A stretch of 64,000 nucleotides of DNA, from contig OX291561.1 in assembly GCA_946406115.1 (NCBI GenBank), forward strand, positions 3,960,273 to 4,024,272, in the 5' to 3' direction. The position numbers were made by a program, and so were the translations under genes. Shown here piece after piece: positions 2,849-64,000 of this stretch. The number at the start of each line of letters is the position of its first letter. Position 1 is the first letter of the stretch. Source of the stretch: Apoda limacodes. Its lineage: Eukaryota; Arthropoda; Insecta; Lepidoptera; Limacodidae. The notes beneath the pieces are model-generated. The model was not told the origin of the DNA and made no database searches. It worked only from the letters and a program-made list of their open reading frames with translations.

Positions 2849-3517
2849 CTCCAAGAGCATTGTAATCCTTGGCATTGACATTTCCAGTGATGTTCAGTTC
2901 TGAGATCATTTGCAAGACAAGATGAAGCTGGAAGCGTCTGGCTCAACAGAGCGAGGCAGGACTTCACGTCGGGGTAGAGGTTGCTGCTTTACAAGTCGCA
3001 AGTTCGGCCCCATATGGAATACTGCACCCGGTTACCCGCTTGGCCCTTTTGACCGGTACAACGACGGGCGGTGGGAATTGTCGACGATCCCAAACTCACT
3101 TGCCGTATCGAACCCTTAAGTCTGAGGAGAGACTTTCCCTCCCTGTGTGTGTTCAACTGCTTGTACAATGGGATGCGTTCTGAGGAATCGTTCGAAATGA
3201 TGTCCACGGCTACTTTTTACCATCGCACCGCTCGCCATCGGCAGGGAATTCATTCTCACACTTTACAATCGAAATGGTTGCGTACAGTGCGGTTTCAAAG
3301 AAACTTCCTCCCGCGAACGCTTGGGTTTTGGAATGAGCTCCCTGCCAAGGTTTTCTCTAATGACTTCAGTATGGGGTTCTTCAAGAAAGAAGTTATTGGA
3401 TTTTTAAAGGGTCGGCAACGAGCGAGTGATACCCCTGGTGTTACAAGCGTCCATAGGCCATGGTGACCGCTTACAATCAGGCGGATCGTGTGCTTGTTCC
3501 ACCACCTTAGTGGTATA
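2849..3517 (+). pseudogene. Old 3' copy of the jockey/CR1-like LINE
   Basis: This is a diverged copy of the last roughly 200 codons of the LINE open at 10920-13472. It contains counterparts of the segments 'SIxILGxDIS', 'RPHMEYC', 'IEPLSLRRDF', 'TARHRQGIHSHTL' and 'GRQRASDTPGV', split between frames by small indels. It ends with the family's 3' sequence 'gtggtataaaaaaa'. 5' truncation is typical of target-primed reverse transcription. Divergence and frameshifts mark it as the oldest of the longer copies here. Confidence 0.85.
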
Positions 3518-4258
3518 AAAAAACATTTGGTGGGCACCTATACATATAAAAAATAAAACAACACGACAAATATAATTGTTCGTGAACATATAATTTGTTC
3601 TTTCGCAAAAAAATAAAGATAACCTAATCGAACCTATGGAAAACCTTTTTATCTATTTATTTCACTTATACAGTAAGCCATTAAAGGCATCATAGAGCAA
3701 TCATGAGGTGCGGTGCGTTGTGACACGGGGGACTGAACGTGGAAGCCTATGGACTAGCCTATGTCAACCAACACCAAGTCATTACATACTCGTATGGCCA
3801 TTGTTCAGCCAGTAGGTACGTTTGGTCGAGGCGCGGCGTCATCAAAGACTAGACGGTGTCGGATATTCCTTTAACACCGACTATGTGAATAAAAGTTTTA
3901 CAAACTAATATGTTTTGTTGTTTGTGCCTACGTTCTGAGATAACTGCGGGCCATCTGTGGACAGACAAACTACCGCTGTACCACTTTCGTAGTTAATATC
4001 CCTGGACATATACTATTATCTGTGGTCAATATTGGTATGTTTACACATGTATCAACATGTTGTCAAAGCACATAATTATAGGGGCTTTTAATAAACTTAC
4101 AGATTAATATAAAATTTAGTTCGCTATTATCTCGAAAATGGTTTTTTATTGAAGCAACAAAATCCCCGCCATAAAAGTGGGTGTCCTAATAGATGAAATG
4201 GAATGAGATCTAAGAGGTCTATCACTAGGGAATACCAATTTTTTTTCGTACACTCTGC
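3518..4258. other. Unannotated AT-rich stretch
   Basis: No gene, RNA or repeat family is recognised between the LINE remnant and the TTAA-flanked MITE. Confidence 0.5.
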
Positions 4259-10873: not shown

Positions 10874-13440
10874 CCACTAAGGTGGCAAACAAGCCTACGG
10901 TCCGCCTGATGGTAAGCGGTCACCGTAGCCTATGGACGCTTGCAACACCAGGGGCATCACTCGCGCGTTGCCGACCCTTCAGCAATCTAATAACTTCTTT
11001 TTTGAAGAACCCCATACTGTAGTCCTTAGAGAAAACCTTGGCAGGGAGCTCATTCCACAACCCAAGGGTTCGCGGGAGGAAGTTTCTCTGAAACCGCACT
11101 GTTCGCGACCATTTTGGTTCCAAAGTGTGAGAATGAATTCCCTGTCGATGGCGAGCGGTGCGATGGTAGAAAGTAGCCGTGGGCATCATTTCGAACAATT
11201 CCTCAGAACACAATCCATTGTACAAGCGGTAGAACACACACAGGGAGGCAAAGTCTCTCCTCAGACTTAAGGGTTCGATACCGCAAGTGAGTTTGGGATC
11301 GTCGACAATTCTCACAGCCCGTCGTTGAACCGAGTCAAAAGGGCCAAGCTGGTATCCGGGTGCACCCGCCCAGAGATGGCAGCAGTACTCCATATGGGGC
11401 CGGACTTGCGACTTGTAAAGTAGCAACCTTTGCCCCGACGTGAAGTACTGCTTCGCTCTGTTGAGTACACCAAGTTTTTTGGACGCCAGCTTTACCTTGC
11501 CTAGCAAATGATCTCGGAACTGAACATCGCTGGAGATGTCAACGCCAAGGATCCCAATGCTCTTGGAGATGGAGAGGGGAGTGTTCTGGAATTGTGGGAC
11601 TACAGTGAATGGGGTTTTCTTAGCGGTGAACGCGCAGACTTGTGTCTTTGAAGGGTTGAATCGGACCAAGTTTTCCCGCCCCCAGTCAGAGACCTTAGAC
11701 AGACCGATCTCGATTTGAGACACAAGTTCTTCACGCTTTTCCTCCACAACGGAACGTGGGATGCTTGCACGGCCCGTGTAATAAGCGTCTCCAGTACTGT
11801 CATCTGCATAGCAATGTATGTTGTTGATGTCCAACATATCATTGATGTGCAGTAGAAACAGCGTAGGAGACAGCACAGAGCCTTGCGGGACACCAGCATT
11901 AATGTCCATGCTATCAGAGCAACTACCGTCAACTACGGCTCGTATGCTTCTGCCGGACAAAAAGCTAGCCACCCATTTGCACAAACCCTCGGGCACTCCG
12001 TAAGAAGGCAACTTCGATAGAAGACCCCGGTGCCAGACCCGATCGAACGCCTTCGCTATGTCTAGGCTACATGCCAATGCCTCCCCCTGACTCTCAATGG
12101 CTAGTGCCCATCGGTGTGTGAGATACACTAGAAGGTCACCAGTTGAGCGACCGTGGCGAAAGCCATATTGACGGTCACTGATCAGGTCGTGTTTTTCTAG
12201 GTATCTCAAAAGCTGTGTGTTGATCACACGCTCCATCACCTTGGAGAGGAGAGAGGTTATAGCGATAGGCCTGTAATTCGATGGATCTGATCTATCGCCC
12301 TTTTTGGGCACCGGGTGCACATTTGCAGTCTTCCATGAAGACGGAAATTGCCTAGTGTGGTAGGAAAGCGTGAAGAGGCGCGTGAGTACAGGACATAACT
12401 CAGGAGCACACTGCTTAAGCACCACTGCTGGTATGCCGTCTGGCCCACTCGACTTATGAACGTCTAGGGAAAGCAACGCCCGCCGGACCTCGCGCTGTGT
12501 TATAGTGATTTCCGGCATGGTCTTACCGCACCACGGTAAAGTAGGTGGTACAGCGCCTTCGTCGTTCACATTCGAGTTAGAGGCAAAGAGACTGCCCAAT
12601 AGATCGGCTTTCTCTTTTGCACTGTGGGCCAAGTCACCATCGGTCTTTCGCAGTGGTGGTAATGACGACTGGCAGAAGTTCCCCTCGGCAGCTTTAGCAA
12701 GCGACCAGAAAGCACGACTCCCAGAAGGATAGCTCGCAAGTCGCCCACCTATTTTGCCGATGAATTGGAATTTTGCTCTGGCAGTTGCTTTCTTACTGAA
12801 CCTCGAGGCAGCATTTAATTTGCGTTTTAACTCAGAAATATTCGGATCCTTATTATTACGAGCCGTGGTCCAAGCCTCATACGCAGTTTGCTTAAGAATT
12901 TTAGCTTCTCTGCAAGGCCTATTAAACCACGGTCGTTTTTTGACGCCGGCAGCTACTCGCAGGTTAGGAATGAAACATTCCATACCAGCGAGGATTGTCT
13001 CAGTGACTGCGGCTGCGCAGACGTCAGGATCTTCTGAGCTATAGCAGATCTGCCTCCACGGGTACGATGCATAAAATTCTCGCAATCCATCCCAGTCTGC
13101 CGACTTATAATGCCACACACGACGCCAATTAGTTGGCCCAGAAGGATCGGGTTGTGTGCATGACAATCGAGTCCGGATGAGACAGTGGTCCGAGGAGCCA
13201 AGAGGCGCATCCACTGAGACGGAGTATCCATCCGGACGTGTAGTCAGCAGAAGGTCCAGTAAGGAGCTTGTATGGTCCTCTATATCTGGTATTCTCGTTG
13301 GAGAAAGTACCAGCTGAGAGAATCCATAGGTCAGAGCAAATTCATGAGCAGATATCCCTGCATAGTTATTGGTTCGAGAACTGAGCCACTCACGATGGTG
13401 GGCGTTAAAGTCTCCCAAAATAAATAAAGATTGCCTATAT
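10811..13440 (-). mobile_element. Young 5'-truncated non-LTR retrotransposon (jockey/CR1-like)
   Basis: The element runs from about 13440 (5' truncation point, where conserved endonuclease sequence begins) to a 60-base poly(A) tract, read as poly(T) at 10811-10870. Its 3' UTR is only about 50 bp and ends 'gtggtat' before the poly(A), shared with the copies at 3517, 14780, 18128, 20470 and 47692. The uninterrupted frame and pure poly(A) indicate a recent insertion. I did not find a convincing target-site duplication. Confidence 0.9.
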
Positions 13441-13472
13441 AAAAACGTCTTATTCGAAGCGCGGACTGACAA
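10920..13472 (-). CDS. LINE endonuclease (partial)-reverse transcriptase polyprotein
   Basis: The 850-codon frame encodes the end of an apurinic-like endonuclease and a complete reverse transcriptase; together these nick target DNA and copy the element RNA into it. Visible motifs are GDFNAHH at residues 20-26 and SDHCLI at 94-99 (endonuclease); SSGPDGIP near 341; the RT core NYRPIAI near 399; catalytic DIAKAFD at 471-477; GVPQGSVLSP at 527-536; and YADD at 555-558. A long C-terminal thumb-like region follows, with RPHMEYCCHLW near 690. The N-terminal half of the endonuclease and any ORF1 are missing. The first dozen residues probably come from flanking DNA, so the annotated start is only the first ATG of the open frame. 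The copy cannot retrotranspose as it stands, though its RT is open throughout. The clade (jockey or CR1/L2 group) is not settled by eye. Confidence 0.9.
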   Translation of the reverse strand: MSVRASNKTFLYRQSLFILGDFNAHHREWLSSRTNNYAGISAHEFALTYGFSQLVLSPTRIPDIEDHTSSLLDLLLTTRPDGYSVSVDAPLGSSDHCLIRTRLSCTQPDPSGPTNWRRVWHYKSADWDGLREFYASYPWRQICYSSEDPDVCAAAVTETILAGMECFIPNLRVAAGVKKRPWFNRPCREAKILKQTAYEAWTTARNNKDPNISELKRKLNAASRFSKKATARAKFQFIGKIGGRLASYPSGSRAFWSLAKAAEGNFCQSSLPPLRKTDGDLAHSAKEKADLLGSLFASNSNVNDEGAVPPTLPWCGKTMPEITITQREVRRALLSLDVHKSSGPDGIPAVVLKQCAPELCPVLTRLFTLSYHTRQFPSSWKTANVHPVPKKGDRSDPSNYRPIAITSLLSKVMERVINTQLLRYLEKHDLISDRQYGFRHGRSTGDLLVYLTHRWALAIESQGEALACSLDIAKAFDRVWHRGLLSKLPSYGVPEGLCKWVASFLSGRSIRAVVDGSCSDSMDINAGVPQGSVLSPTLFLLHINDMLDINNIHCYADDSTGDAYYTGRASIPRSVVEEKREELVSQIEIGLSKVSDWGRENLVRFNPSKTQVCAFTAKKTPFTVVPQFQNTPLSISKSIGILGVDISSDVQFRDHLLGKVKLASKKLGVLNRAKQYFTSGQRLLLYKSQVRPHMEYCCHLWAGAPGYQLGPFDSVQRRAVRIVDDPKLTCGIEPLSLRRDFASLCVFYRLYNGLCSEELFEMMPTATFYHRTARHRQGIHSHTLEPKWSRTVRFQRNFLPRTLGLWNELPAKVFSKDYSMGFFKKEVIRLLKGRQRASDAPGVASVHRLR

Positions 13473-13623
13473 ACAAATCTTTCATTTGATTGGTATATTT
13501 TGTTAATTATTCTGTAATATCTAATAGATCTACTGAGTAGATATAGTTTTATTTAATTGATAATAATATCTCACTTTAATAGTCAACTCAACTAAGATTA
13601 TAGGTTTAATTTTTTTGACTTCT

Positions 13624-17440: not shown

Positions 17441-18127
17441 AAAGGTATTTATACCTATTCCTTTATACCTATTATATATAATTTTGTTTTCGATTATTTA
17501 CTGTGAAAATATATTGAATTAGATAAACTATTTAAATTCAAAAGCGTGTTTATATATTCCAAGTTTGATTAAAGACGTGGCTTTTACGTTATTTCGGTAT
17601 ACTCGTTGCCTTAACTATACGCTCGTAAATTTAGCCGTTTTAGAGTTAATAGCGTATTAAATTTTGTATTGTACTGTTAGTTTACTGGAACATCAAAGGA
17701 AAATGGCGAAGTTTGATGTAGGTGGACGTAGGATATCTATATACCCTAATATCTTAGACCGTAATGATTTTAAATAAATAAATATTACTGGGCATTTTAC
17801 ACAGCGACATCTAGTAACAAACTAAGCTTGTAGTACCATGTAGGTATACAAGAAAAAGGATACAAATACGTGTATATACATATATTTTTTTTGTCTAAAT
17901 TCATACGGGTACAGCCTTACCAAGTGCGAGTCTGGTTCGCGCACCGAGGGTTCCGTACAGACTTATTATATGTAGATAGATAGTTCCTACATCATGAGAT
18001 CGTTACAAGTTTATGCCTTAATTACCAGTTTTTGGATTTTTTTCTATATTTGAGATGTAACATCTTGCTTTTAGCCAAATGTCATGATTCTAGGTCAACG
18101 GGCAGTACCGCATAGGTTTTGATTTTT
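17441..18127. other. Unannotated stretch with a short family A head
   Basis: At 17925-17960 there is another truncated family A head ('ccaagtgcgagtctggttcg'). Nothing else is recognised. Confidence 0.45.
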
Positions 18128-18292
18128 TTTCTACCACTTAGGTGGCAAAGAAGCACATGGTCCGCCTGCGGTCACCGTGGCCTATGGACGCTTGTAACAC
18201 CAGGGGTATTACTCGCGCTTTGCCGACCCTTCAAAAATTCAATAACTTCTTTCTTGAAGAACCCCATACTGCAGTCCTTGGAGGAAACCTTT
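18128..18292 (-). pseudogene. Short LINE 3' fragment
   Basis: This is the last roughly 165 bp of the LINE family: 'taccacttaggtggcaaaga' at the 3' end, then the reverse complement of the codons for 'GRQSASNTPGVTSVHRPR' and 'CSMGFFKKEVIEFLK'. It has a small deletion where other copies carry 'gatggtaag'. Confidence 0.85.
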
Positions 18293-19734: not shown

Positions 19735-20466
19735 CTGTAGTCCCACAATTCCAGAACACTCCCCTCTCCATCTCCAAGAGCATTGGGATCCTTGGTGTCG
19801 ACATCTCCAGCGATGTTCAGTTCCGAGATCATTTACAAGATAAGGTGAAGCTGGCGTCCAAAAAACTTGGTGTACTCAACAGAGCGAAGCAGTACTTCAC
19901 GTCGGGGCAAAGGTTGTTACTTTACAAGTCGCAGGTTCGGCCCCATATGGAGTACTGCTGCCATCTCTGGGCAGGTGCACCCGGATACCAGCTTGGCCCT
20001 TTTGACTCGGTTCAACGACGGGCTGTGAGAATTGTCGACGATTCCAAACTCACTTGCGGTATCGAGCCCTTAAGTCTGAGGAGAGACTTTGCCTCACTGT
20101 GTGTGTTCTACCGCTTGTACAATGGGTTGTGTTCTGAGGAATTGTTCGAAATGATGCCCACGGCTACTTTCTACCATCGCACCGCTCGCCATCGGCAGGG
20201 AATTCATTCTCACACTTTAGAACCTAAATGGTCGCGTACAGTGCGGTTTCAGAGAAACTTCCTCCCACGAACGCTTAAGTTGTGGAATGAGCTCCCTGCC
20301 AAGGTTTTCTGCAAGGACTACAGTATGGAGTTCTTCAAGAAAGAAGTTATTAGATTTCTGAAGGGTCGGCAACGCGCAAGTGATACCCCTGGTGTTGCAA
20401 GCGTCCATAGGCTACGGTGACCGCTTACCATCAGGCGGGCCGTAAGCTTGTTTGCCACCTTAGTGG

Positions 20467-20512
<46 letters not shown>
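19735..20512 (+). pseudogene. Recent 5'-truncated LINE 3' end with poly(A)
   Basis: The copy begins inside the RT C-terminal region (VPQFQNTPLSISKSIG) and stays open to the stop at 20420, giving about 227 codons in the same frame as residues 620-850 of the 10920-13472 protein. It differs there by only a few residues. The 3' UTR is intact and is followed by a poly(A) run of about 43 bases at 20470-20512. The close match makes it a sister insertion of the young LINE; it lacks the catalytic RT motifs. Confidence 0.9.
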
Positions 20513-20515
<3 letters not shown>

Positions 20516-21468
20516 ATTGACCGGAATAGAATAATTTCACTATAAAAGTGAAAGTTTTTTTTTATTCATGTCGCTTTTTTTATTTAATCAACGATTTGTA
20601 CATAGACAATGTAAACAGTTTACCTAATAGGTTCATAGATGGCGTTATTTACATTAAATTAACTTTATATTTTGATAACATTACAACATTATATTTATCA
20701 CAACCGACAGTAACGTAACGCGTAATGTCGACATCTCCAATCTGACGAAACGGTATGCTAGATTATTTTTTAAATGCTTTATGGACTATAGAGTTGTCAT
20801 ATCAAAACTAGACTTTTGCACTTTGGCTCTTAAAATATTAGAATTGCAGTAAAAATTCGTCACCCAAATGAATTGTGACACAAAAGTAAAAGCTAATTAT
20901 TTTTACCTATTAATGAAACACATTAGTATCAAGTTATTTTACAACAAAGCTAATTTTAAATAGAGGTCAGAAAGCTATAGATTAAATGTAAATACATATT
21001 AATAAGGTTCACTTAATTTTTTTTTAAATATTTCTACAAATTCCTCTGACTTTACCGAAATAGGACAAAGAGTCACACAAAAAATTTGACAATTTCGACG
21101 GCCATACCCAAATGATGTTAACACTCGTGACATCGGAAATATTTTAGAGTACACTATCATAAAATTCATCGTTCCATACTGTAACTCGCCTCAACACAGG
21201 TGACGTCAATGAGCGCCATGGCATCGGTATATTTTACAGTGCAGAGCCTTCACATAAGGTACTCTAATATGTTGTAAAATCGAATGCGCGATATGCGCTT
21301 ACGCACTTTGAAATGTTTCTGATCCCATCACCGCGCTGTGTCATATGTAGGTGAGATTATCTGTCTCATAATCATTCTGTTTCTTGTCGCTCGCAACGCA
21401 AGACGATACGAAAATAATTCGTTGGTTTACATTTCATTGACGACATGTTCGAATTAATTAGTAACTAT
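20513..21468. other. Unannotated stretch left of the DD82E transposon
   Basis: No gene or repeat recognised. Confidence 0.45.
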
Positions 21469-21495
21469 ACTCTATCCACCGAAACGAGTTAATAG
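21469..21495 (+). repeat. Left terminal inverted repeat of the DD82E transposon
   Basis: It reads ACTCTATCCACCGAAACGAG and then TTAATAG. It is identical over 27 bases to the reverse complement of 23551-23577. Confidence 0.95.
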
Positions 21496-21739
21496 AGCAT
21501 TGTCTCTGTCGCACAATCCCTTACAAAAGATAAGGACACAAAAAGGTGAGTGGGCGTCAACTATACTGATAAAAAGTTAAGGTGTGTTCATATGCGATGA
21601 TTTTGTGCGCTCAATAGTAAGCACTAAAACCACTTAAGTATTTTGTATTGAACTTAGAGAAAGAAAGAAAAATATTAAGACAATGTTTTAAAATAAAATT
21701 ATGTATATTTAAATAGTTTAACATATACAATTAATTAAA

Positions 21740-23278
21740 TTATTCCGACGTATCACTACTGTCGCTGTCACTTCCCACGTTTATTATGAATGTTTCGGTC
21801 ATTGTTTCCACATTTCTGTCCATGGCATTCATTTTCGGTTCTACTATCTCTTCGACATGTTTTATGCATTTTTTCCATTTTGCAGCGTCAATATTTTGAA
21901 TTGAGTTGTTTAATAACATTTTTAATTCTGCCATCTTGTATGTTTTGTTGCGGGATGCGACATGTCCTTTAACTTGAGCCCAGATCAACTCTATCGGATT
22001 TAATTCGCAGTGATACGGCGGAAGTCGTACCACAGTTTTATTTTTAGCTTTCGCCATTTCGTCTACGACACGCGCCTCGTACTGCTCCTTATGATTTTTT
22101 ACGATATTCAGTAGCTCTCGTTTTAATAAATCATCCTGAAAGGGGATTTGTTTTTCTTTCAACCAATTAATTATCTCTTGTTTTTTATTTTTTTCAGTCG
22201 GAATTTGCTCTACTTTTCTTGAGTGGTACGAAGCGTTGTCCATTACAATAATACAATTATCATGTAACTTTTCAAGAATATTTTTGAACCAATTCTCAAA
22301 CACTTCGGCATTCATATCTTGATGGTAATCTCCTTGCTTTTTTGACTCGAACACGTGTAAGCCCCCTTCTACAAATCCATCATCACTTCCAATATGAGTA
22401 ATTATTAACCTTTTTCCTTTTCCTGGAACAATAAAAAATTGTATTGAATGATCTGATACAAAGTTAACGCTCACACAGTTTAAGATAACATAACAAACAA
22501 TAAGTGCCGCCAATTAAGGATCGCTCAGGTACATTCAAACCTTTTCAAAGAATTGCATTAATGACAAAGACAGTTTTAACAATGGAATTATGTTAAAGAA
22601 CTTACCGGAAGGATTTTTTAATCCAGTTGTCAGGCCATCAAGGAATGCGTCGCGTTTATTTTTCACATTTGTATCAGTCCATACGTTTGTAGTAGTATGG
22701 CCTTCATTGAGCCAAGTCTCATCCAAATAATATATTTTTTTCTTTTCTTCTCTTGCCATTTTCATTGTCCGCAAATAATTCCTCCGCCAAAAAAATATGT
22801 CGTCACGATCAATCAATAAGCTGTTCCTGCATCTTTTAATGTACCTAAATCCAATCATTTTAAGGATTTTATGAAGTGTTGATCTTTTGAATGTCCCCAA
22901 AGTACCATCTTCATTTATTGAATTCATTATTTTGTCCAATGTCGGTATCTCATTTCGGGAAAATAAATCGTGAACTTTTCTTCTTATAGCACATTTAGTT
23001 AAGTCGTCGATTGTGTCTACAATGAAAGTACGTTTTCTTGTTTTTTTGGGTGAATTTAAAACATTTTTAGTTTCTTTCTCTTTCAGAATTCTATAGATGG
23101 ACATCCAATGAACACCCATAGATGATGCAACAGCTTTCATGACGTCATTGTTTGAAGGGGATTCCATGGAACTCCTCATAGATTGATACATGTTCCATAT
23201 CATTGTTTTTTCAGTCGAGGAAAAGGCTCGTCGTCGCCTTTTTTCCACAGAGTTACCTCCATGTAAACTGTCGGCCAT
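21740..23278 (-). CDS. DD82E transposase, two exons
   Basis: This is a cut-and-paste transposase that would bind the 27-bp ends and move the element into TA sites. Exon 1 is 22606-23278 and exon 2 is 21740-22422; joined they give 451 residues. The N-terminal region (about 15-150) holds two helix-turn-helix-like DNA-binding segments. The catalytic triad is D186 in YYLDETWLN, D286 in IVMDNASYHS and E369 in ELNPIELIW, with exactly 82 residues between the second D and the E. The PPYHCELNPIELIW block is the usual IS630/Tc1 signature. The tail is acidic (SDSDSSDTSE). I chose the ATG at 23278 (MADSLHGG); another in-frame ATG lies 10 codons upstream at 23308. Without splicing, the two halves are separated by stops. 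No frameshift or internal stop was seen within the exons. The family is secure; the Sailor assignment rests on the spacing alone. Confidence 0.85.
22423..22605 (-). other. 183-bp GT-AG intron in the transposase gene
   Basis: The minus-strand donor is TTCCG|GTAAGT and the acceptor is TTATTGTTCCAG|GA. The intron is phase 1: G plus GA makes a glycine codon and gives NPSG-KGKRL. Both sites have good consensus, and the join restores one frame across the transposase fold. Confidence 0.85.
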
Positions 23279-23550
23279 CTCACTTAGGCAAATCGACAGT
23301 AAACTCAAAAAGTCCGTTATACAAGCGCCAAGTCTTTAGGAATGCAATCAATCACAAAGCCGGGTCACACGTAACAAAATTATCCAGAGTCCAAATAACA
23401 AGCCGAGTCAAAAAATAAAATAATAGATTGCACTAGCACAGTGAGCACGTCTGAACAGTACGAGTCGCACGAACAAACTAAAAAAACTCGCGCTGTGAAC
23501 ACAGCCTTAACGTCATTGTTCGACCAATCACATGCCAGTTCATTTTTCCC

Positions 23551-23577
23551 CTATTAACTCGTTTCGGTGGATAGAGT
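23551..23577 (-). repeat. Right terminal inverted repeat of the DD82E transposon
   Basis: It is the exact reverse complement of 21469-21495, read CTATTAACTCGTTTCGGTGG and then ATAGAGT on the plus strand. Confidence 0.95.
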
Positions 23578-23689
23578 TATAGAAGCCTGAGACTGGAAAC
23601 AGAAACATTCAACCTTATAACTATATATAACACAAAGACGCAACAGTCACAAATCGGTTGAAAACAAGGATCGAGTCTGAAATTTTTTA

Positions 23690-47430: not shown

Positions 47431-47691
47431 TATAATATTATATCAAGAATACTGTTGAAAATGCAGAGTATATATTGATAATATAATATACCTACTAAAG
47501 ACGTGACTGCATGGCACAGTCCTTGCCCCCTGACCTTTCAACAACGATATATCCAGATTAAGAAAAATAGAGTCCCTAGAGACTAATGATACACTTTACA
47601 CTGCCTACAATGTACTATAATGACATACTTTTAGGGCATGAGAAGTGAAAGCTATATTATTACTGTGATAAATACTTAAACTTGTTTTTTT

Positions 47692-48373
47692 TTATACCAC
47701 TAAGGTGGCAAACAAACTTGCGTTCTGCGTAAGCGGTCACCCCAGCCTATGCACGCTTGCAACACTTGGGGGATCACTCGCGCGTTGCCGACCCTTCGAA
47801 TATCTAATACCTTCTTCCTTGAAGAATCCCATACTGTAGTTCTTAGAAAATTCCTTGGCAGGGAGCTCATACCACAACACAAGCGTTCGCGGGAGGAAAT
47901 TTCTCTGAAACCGCACTGTACGCGACCACTTCGGTTCCAAACTGTAAGAATGAATCCCCTGCTAATGGCGAGCGGTGCCATGGTAGAAAGTAGCCGTGGG
48001 CATCATTTCGAACTATTCCTCAGAACACATCCTAGTGTAAAAGCGGTAAAAAACACAGAGATAGGCAAAGTCTTTCTCAGAGTTAAGGGCTCGATACGGC
48101 AAGTGAGTTTGGGATCGTCGACAATCGTTACAGCCCGTCGTCGAACCGAGTCAAAAAGGCCAAGCTCGTATCCGGGTGCACCGGCATAGAGATGTCAGCA
48201 GTACACCATATGGGGCCGGACTTGCGACTTGTAAACCAGCAACCTTTGCCCCGACGTGAAGTACTGCTTCGCTCTGTCGAGTACACAAAGGACGCCAGTT
48301 TCACCTTGTCTTGCAGATGATCTCGGAACTGAACATCGCTGCAGATGTCAACACCAAGGATTCCAATGCTGAA
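47692..48373 (-). pseudogene. LINE 3' copy, about 680 bp
   Basis: It is 5'-truncated at the segment encoding SIGILGVDIS and runs to the family 3' end ('ttataccactaaggtggcaa' on the plus strand) with a short T run. Several frameshifts and a deletion near 48285 break the reading frame. It is intermediate in age between the copies at 2849 and 19735. Confidence 0.85.
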
Positions 48374-62755: not shown

Positions 62756-64000
62756 ATGGAAATAAATAAGTTATTTGAGTTTTCTGGATGGAAAATGGAT
62801 CCCGCAAGATTCTACAGTAGAACACGTAAGTATTATGATCCATATCTTATTGAAAATATTTTTCCAACTTTGTTCCCAAAATGGAACAGTATGAACTAAG
62901 GGCAAGTAAAATATCGACAAATATGGAACTATATGCTTTACCGTTTGTATTAATGCTTGACCAAATATGGAACTCTATGCAGAGGTACTAAAGTAGTATT
63001 AAATATTATTATTAGTATATAATTATGTTATGAAATCTTTATAACTGAGCAGTAGGCAAAGTATTTTTTACGTTTCGTTTTACTTTAAACAGTCTGTATA
63101 TTCAACTTACAGTTATATATTGTTATTGTCATACAAAAACCGTTAGTAGATCTTTTTTTAATTACAGGCATAATTAAGAATCGCGGGCGTAATATTTCTT
63201 TGTTTCCTGAAGAAAGTGAAGATGAAAACCTGTCAGATGTAGATGATTATAACTTACCTCTTAGGACAGCTGCTACCATTGAAGAAACAGACAATGAATC
63301 TGATTATTTTGAAGAAGATGGAAACATTATGTCAGATATAGATGTTATATATTTGAAAGAAGATACTCAAACCGATACTTTTTCTGACGAAGTTGAAGAA
63401 GCGAAAAACTTAGAAGAACCATCAACATCTACAAACATAAAGAGCAGTAACAGAAAAAAGGCACAAAAGAAAACAAAAGAGACACAACAATGGACTAAAC
63501 TGACATGGACCGAGAAATCAATTGATTATGAAAGCCAAAATACCAGTTTCTTAGGTTGTGAAGATCTCCCAGAAGAAATCATGAATTTGCAAACCCCAAT
63601 AAATTTTTTAAGTATCTTTTTCCAACAGAGGCTTTAAATCTAATGCACGAACAAAGAAACCTGTACGCACAACAAGTTCAGATTGAAAAAGCAAATTATA
63701 TAGCTAGGGATGACATCAGTAAATTTATAGGAATTATCATTTATATGTCTGTTGTTCAGTTGCCGCCTACGCACCATTATTGGAGAGAAGGAACATATAT
63801 AGAAAAGGTAGCTTCAACTTTAACTTGTAACAAATTTGAAGAAGTGAAGAGATTTTTGCATTTCTTTGATAAAACCGAAGAATTTAAACCGAACGAACCT
63901 AGTTATGATAAACTACAAAAAATAAGATCATTCCTTGACATTCTGAGACTTCAATTATTGAAGGTCCCTAAAGAAGAGCACTTGGCAGTAGACGAACAAA
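62756..64000 (+). CDS. piggyBac-like transposase, partial, with intron and frameshift
   Basis: This is a cut-and-paste transposase acting at TTAA sites. Exon 1 (62756-62825) encodes MEINKLFEFSGWKMDPARFY and then SRT. It joins in phase 1 to exon 2 at 63168 (R-IIKNRGRNISLFPEES). An acidic, low-complexity N-terminal region follows, then the start of the conserved domain. After a one-base deletion in a T run at 63604-63609 the frame continues as KYLFPTEALNLM, RNLYAQQ, ISKFIGIIIYMSVVQLPPTH and HYWREGTYIEKVASTLTCNK. It reaches VDEQ at the last bases, where the aspartate (63991-63993) should be the first catalytic residue. As read, translation would stop about 10 codons after the shift (stop at 63637). 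The domain order and the FIGIIIYM, HYW and F.E..RFLHFFD segments are diagnostic of the family. Confidence 0.8.
62826..63167 (+). other. 342-bp intron in the piggyBac-like transposase
   Basis: The donor is ACAC|GTAAGT and the acceptor is TTTTTTTAATTACAG|GC; phase 1, C plus GC giving arginine. Without it, exon 1 runs into a stop and the long frame has no ATG near its start. Confidence 0.6.

Follow-up and report, generated by a model that had tools for sequence, protein, structure and literature searches.

Structure of the element and its surroundings

The window, which is the whole 64-kb stretch of DNA that was analysed, carries a transposon with terminal inverted repeats and a transposase gene in two exons (Table 1). 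The inverted repeats at 21469-21495 and 23551-23577 (27 bp each) were 100% complementary, and no further match to the 27-bp repeat was found elsewhere in the 64-kb window with up to 8 mismatches tolerated. The ends were at first given as these 27 bp, with the element spanning 21469-23577. Empty sites decided for 28-bp ends that include a terminal TA, and once they are considered, the window element is 21468-23579. The alignment score of the two possible subterminal repeats was 26, a weak result reached in 4 of 500 shuffles. A bacterial promoter scan of the element was discarded as meaningless for an insect host.

Table 1. Coordinates of the element and its parts in the window.
Feature	Position	Strand	Basis
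Left target-site duplication, TA	21466-21467	.	Letters here and empty sites of three other insertions
Left terminal inverted repeat, 28 bp, starting with the element's own TA	21468-21495	+	Repeats and empty sites
Possible left subterminal repeat, inverted partner of 23483-23512	21576-21604	+	Weak alignment
Transposase exon 2 (second D, E, stop)	21740-22422	-	Reading frame, spliced translation
Catalytic E369 codon	21989-21991	-	Spliced translation
Helical insertion in the interval from second D to E, characteristic of the long spacing	22046-22216	-
Catalytic D286 codon	22238-22240	-	Spliced translation
Intron, 183 nt, GTAAGT...TTCCAG, phase 1	22423-22605	-	Position conserved in relatives
Retained-intron reading frame, 247 aa, lacking D286 and E369	22535-23278	-
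Transposase exon 1 (helix-turn-helix part and first D)	22606-23278	-	Reading frame, spliced translation
Catalytic D186 codon	22721-22723	-	Spliced translation
Possible right subterminal repeat	23483-23512	-	Weak alignment
Right terminal inverted repeat, with an extra T at 23577 before the terminal TA in the window copy	23551-23579	-
Right target-site duplication, TA	23580-23581	.	Letters here and empty sites

Other mobile elements lie in the same window. The longest other frame, 10923-13481 (-), is uninterrupted over 853 residues and belongs to a non-LTR retrotransposon (RVT_1, endonuclease). The named proteins nearest to it come from Lepidoptera (Euphydryas editha, 83%), named crab and beetle proteins standing at 44-46%, and 3' fragments of it recur at 3038-3523, 18123-18292, 19991-20477 and 47676-48165. 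At 63562-63999 (+), a piggyBac-type transposase frame (DDE_Tnp_1_7, E 6.2e-19) begins and runs past the window end, and the frame before it, 63089-63634, had no Pfam match.

Transposase and assignment to Sailor

The spliced transposase has 451 residues with the catalytic residues D186, D286 and E369, and 82 residues separate the second D from the E. The initial annotation had read the same continuous frame after removal of a GT-AG intron, with all catalytic residues and the same spacing; both readings were confirmed, and in-frame stops appear if the intron is retained. In Pfam, the protein matched DDE_3 at E 3e-12, the sole other match up to E 1 being at 0.56. Helix-turn-helix families were found by Pfam in the N-terminal part of relatives, so that the helix-turn-helix N-terminus and RNase-H-type DDE domain of the IS630-Tc1-mariner group are both present. 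For the predicted model of the Helicoverpa armigera relative described below (mean pLDDT 88.4), the top Foldseek match was Mos1 (5hoo_B, E 7.5e-10), and identity in its structure matches to Tc1/mariner was about 11-15%.

The protein search gave 1,187 proteins related at E <= 0.001 from 4,095 candidates, and the initial description of DD82E as a "minor" branch was therefore too modest. Among the matches listed, the best named relative was an uncharacterised Helicoverpa armigera protein (71% identity over 96%), and the nearest named transposase relatives came from Helicoverpa, Cydia and Battus. Together with the lepidopteran relatives of the retrotransposon frame at 10923-13481, these names support a lepidopteran as host. 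A Callosobruchus maculatus protein (P0037) was 54% identical to the transposase; this species is counted among the Sailor-rich species in the main text of PMC8533490. Of the 120 relatives listed (1,187 in total), 68 were hand-picked, mostly near full length, and aligned; DDE was present in 68/68, and the D-E spacing was 82 (50 proteins), 81 (8), 83 (8) or 80 (2).

Sailor, or DD82E, has been described as a superfamily of IS630-Tc1-mariner (Shi et al. 2021, PMC8533490). According to the main text of that paper, the second D and the E of its members are separated by 78-111 residues, most often 82, and the motifs are I/VVYLDET, VIIMDNA and HCELNPIEL. The transposase here has a spacing of 82 (80-83 in relatives) and carries IYYLDET, CIIVMDNA and HCELNPIEL. 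The spacing, the motifs and the relatives thus support the assignment to Sailor already proposed in the initial annotation. Elsewhere, Sailor is mentioned in passing in PMC9777934 and PMC10379824, and in the literature searched only PMC10140906 brings together Sailor, transposon and Lepidoptera.

There is next to no chance that an ordinary Tc1/mariner (DD34-type) element was misread as DD82E, which had been named beforehand as an outcome that would overturn the assignment. The DDE_3 domain is common to both, and the model of the relative has a Mos1-like fold. However, Tc1/mariner transposases have 34-41 residues from the second D to the D/E against 82 here, D286 and E369 lie within a single exon, all 68 aligned relatives are DD80-83E, and the best PDB sequence match, Sleeping Beauty, reached only E 0.08.

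The spacing is 82 instead of 34-41 because of a helical insertion between the second D and the E. Ish1 matched this insertion below the Pfam threshold in 4 of 6 peptides, and among the 68 relatives Ish1 did so in 9 and HeH in 6; Foldseek with the insertion folded alone gave no match. It was therefore not assigned to a known domain, and an Ish1/HeH-type helix-loop-helix is kept as a hint.

Copies in the host genome

The copy searches covered the 800-Mb, 31-contig host assembly. The exact 27-bp end occurred 279 times (100 listed) and its reversed control 0 times, which is more than chance would give. The first 43 bases of the intron occurred 147 times with up to 3 mismatches tolerated (control 0), and 100/100 of the matches listed were exact. 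The whole-element search returned 234 candidates, of which 40 were scored, and all 41 full-length matches listed were 100% identical.

We read 55 copies: the window copy, 41 full-length copies, 8 with a single exact end, 4 shorter pairs and 1 on C10. Over 2,107 bp, 50 of the 55 were identical, 1 had one substitution (L086) and 4 were internally deleted. The eight single exact ends were at first taken for broken copies, and this was rejected: 7 are full, with an identical 2,107-bp core and one different junction base, and the eighth is L086, whose substitution lies in the right repeat. The first element search may favour identical copies. This bias, except for copies without the intron 43-mer, was largely removed by a census of C1-C8, in which 49 of the 51 listed intron-bearing copies were read (C1:20434913 and C8:13738252 were left out); 47 were identical, 1 had a substitution and 1 was a deletion derivative. 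C9, C14 and C15 hold no copies; they are very small (190,521, 48,439 and 33,497 bases), so this absence calls for no explanation.

The flanks vary between copies, which are therefore separate insertions, and identical copies with differing flanks indicate a recent burst. The mutation rate was set at 2.9e-9 per base and generation. At this rate, zero substitutions in 50 copies gave a mean age below about 9,800 generations (95%), with L086 left out and a star tree without gene conversion assumed. The four deletion derivatives measured 591, 956, 1,311 and 1,804 bp; the matching parts at their junctions overlapped by 2, 2 and 0 bp, and one junction had 5 unmatched letters, a pattern consistent with interrupted gap repair following excision. 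The copies (57 copies, 335 Mb) were slightly clustered, with 2 neighbours within 20 kb versus 0.15 expected (p 0.0095) and 14 within 1 Mb versus 8.0 expected (p 0.011); clustering at 100, 300 and 500 kb was not significant.

The initial annotation had called the element a good candidate for an active one, and the 50 identical copies among the 55 read support this strongly; they equally contradict the alternative set out with it, that all copies are old and diverged. The burst could also be recent and yet finished, with young copies that have since been silenced or no longer undergo splicing. We consider this rather unlikely. The four deletion derivatives favour it, whereas hardly any substitutions and many intact copies place the burst within roughly 10,000 generations at the above rate; this age estimate does not separate present-day from just-past activity.

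Target site and irregular junctions

In 38 of the 50 identical copies, TATA directly flanks CTCTATCC and GGATAGAG. The main text of PMC8533490 gives TATA as the predominant Sailor duplication, though not as group-defining. If the duplication were this 4-bp TATA, the ends would begin CTC. The window copy has TATA at the left and T-TATA at the right. Empty sites read differently. The satellite that contains L009 has units of about 117 bp; 8/8 printed empty units read CATAC-TA-GAC, while the filled site reads CATAC-TATA...TATA-GAC. For L045, the repeat has five other copies in the window; the two closest (95%, 92%) and one distant copy read CTAATA, the remaining 2 read CAATA, and all five are without extra letters. 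For L011, the comparison with window 30963-30744 (83%) was ungapped at the junction, with a single TA. The comparisons for L039, L088 and L034 were uninformative.

The single TA at the empty sites of these three insertions indicates that TA is duplicated, as in the rest of the IS630-Tc1-mariner group, and that the second TA belongs to the end of the element, giving a terminal repeat of 28 bp; this is the simplest reading. We believe that a TATA duplication is very unlikely, given the satellite of L009, the two closest copies for L045 and the repeat of L011, all with TA only. What speaks for it, besides the TATA flanks and the published predominance, is that the empty sites are other copies of the same repeats rather than the same locus before insertion, and that 2 of the 5 relatives of the L045 repeat read CA at the site. 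As a separate observation, L001 1-1499 and 3611-5109 consist of a satellite of about 117-119 bp, with 12.7 units on either side of one insertion.

After the 38 canonical sites were collapsed to TA, 28 read CTAG, 5 TTAG, 4 CTAA and 1 GTAG. Among the 5,984 TA sites of the window, CTAG accounts for 2.2% and YTAR for 24%. CTAG is thus strongly preferred as the insertion site.

A junction other than TATA/TATA was found in 12 of the 50 identical copies, including the window copy. The right end carries an extra T in the window copy, L038, L043, L081 and L085. Of these, L043 also has an additional base on its left side, and TATA is missing from the left side of L081 and of L085. L080, L082, L083 and L084 have a deviant right end, and both ends of L087 are deviant. 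At L042 (C2:11757424-11761641), two identical copies follow one another head to tail, separated by a single TA, and their junction is a perfect palindrome. The single TA in this pair fits 2-nt self-complementary TA overhangs, and we speculated that the cut ends carry such overhangs and are able to join each other, and that ends may sometimes be cut or repaired one base off. If the ends carry TA overhangs, excision scars would be expected often to read CTATATAG.

Conserved intron

Relatives with and without the interruption were found. In 21 aligned relatives, the protein runs through the intron point without extra sequence; these may represent DNA that has no intron, or else cDNA after splicing. 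A search with exon 1 in its unspliced frame gave 79 related proteins, 30 of which depart from the family sequence at the same codon, directly after the glycine of NPSG, TPSG, NPTG or NPAG. The residue after the break was K in 13, E in 5, M in 4, N in 3, R in 2, I in 2 and V in 1. K by itself is weak evidence because it is also the family residue; the next residues match GTAAG, GTGAG, GTATG and similar donors read in phase 1. An intron at this codon thus appears in relatives of about 45-86% identity, and one of the 30 proteins is from Callosobruchus chinensis. In a quick exon-1 tree of Sailor-like relatives only, with a long-branch outgroup, 25 of the 30 fell into two clades of 12 and 13, and the intron would be either ancestral to both clades or gained twice.

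In the main text of PMC8533490, supplements apart, "intron" occurs once, within the reference list. Neither a Sailor intron nor an empty-site test was found in the open literature searched, outside which subscription papers and supplements lie.

An intron kept at one codon raises the question of splicing control over the element. The P element of Drosophila limits its own mobility through intron retention. There, as here, the retained intron leads to a truncated protein without the full catalytic domain; the P element belongs to a different superfamily. By analogy, the intron might be an old conserved switch of this Sailor branch, with the retained form as repressor. The retained-intron protein would still have its DNA-binding part and the first D, but neither the second D nor the E; it could bind the ends and restrain mobility, and the burst seen here would be a new invasion from a time when intron control or host silencing had yet to set in. 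We regard this as an improbable, speculative reading.

Origin and distribution

We give an even chance to the view that the copies come from horizontal transfer of one founder rather than from a reawakened resident element. Only a single sequence is present, with every listed intron start exact although 3 mismatches were tolerated, and a protein from a 2,020-bp contig (P0008) is 99% identical to exon 2 with intron read-through. On the other side, that contig may come from the same or a sister species, the intron search reached divergence up to about 7%, and the first candidates (234) outnumber the copies found through the intron (147). The 2,020-bp contig itself represents this element, or one nearly identical to it, in a different sample.

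Two strict motifs were scanned against 84,980 prokaryotic species genomes, a search that could miss distant members, and gave 14 stretches with one true relative. This sole relative is a 425-aa frame (L049 438-1715, 35% identical) on a 3,270-bp Bathymodiolus gill symbiont contig, for which a host origin is plausible; if true, this bears on the published bacteria-to-animal Sailor transfers. In viral contigs, the exact element end had 0 matches, and the motif scan matched 7 stretches, none of which encodes a relative. The plasmids and phages searched gave no match. Carriage by viruses, phages or plasmids was accordingly set aside, with no relative in any of the three.

Interpretation and comparison with known systems

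In our view, the element is very probably an autonomous cut-and-paste transposon of Sailor type (DD82E), complete and with a very recent multiplication in this lepidopteran genome. Identical copies occupy separate sites, insertion is at TA mostly in CTAG, deletion derivatives are present, and the frame with one intron is intact. From these sequences, we speculated that the transcript is spliced at the conserved intron, and that the 451-aa transposase binds the 28-bp ends, excises the element and inserts it at TA. The element type is already known; what is new is that TA is duplicated, with CTAG preferred, and that the intron is conserved. Because this natural Sailor element keeps intact ends and frame in many identical copies, Sailor transposition can be tested directly without reconstruction. 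The published TATA duplication needs to be rechecked against empty sites, because the target here is TA.

Compared with Sailor in the main text of PMC8533490, the element is alike in its DDE with 82 residues, its YLDET, MDNA and HCELNPIEL motifs, the length of transposase and element, end repeats tens of bp long, TATA next to each end and an arthropod host. The end repeats of Sailor usually start with GT or CC and those of arthropods are 18-61 bp long; the 28-bp repeat here is inside this range but begins TA-CTC, that is, with TA, or with CT when TA is left out. The element also differs in the TA duplication at empty sites, the other TA being its own, and in its one intron, undescribed in that main text. 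Tc1/mariner elements (DD34-41D/E; for example, Mos1 and Sleeping Beauty) share the TA target, DDE_3 and the Mos1-like fold seen in the model of the relative, whereas their D-E spacing is shorter. Similarly, the fire ant mariner (PMC6307670) is a recent expansion of an IS630-Tc1-mariner group element in an insect genome. That element is a mariner with germline expression according to the title of the paper, whereas the present element is of Sailor type.
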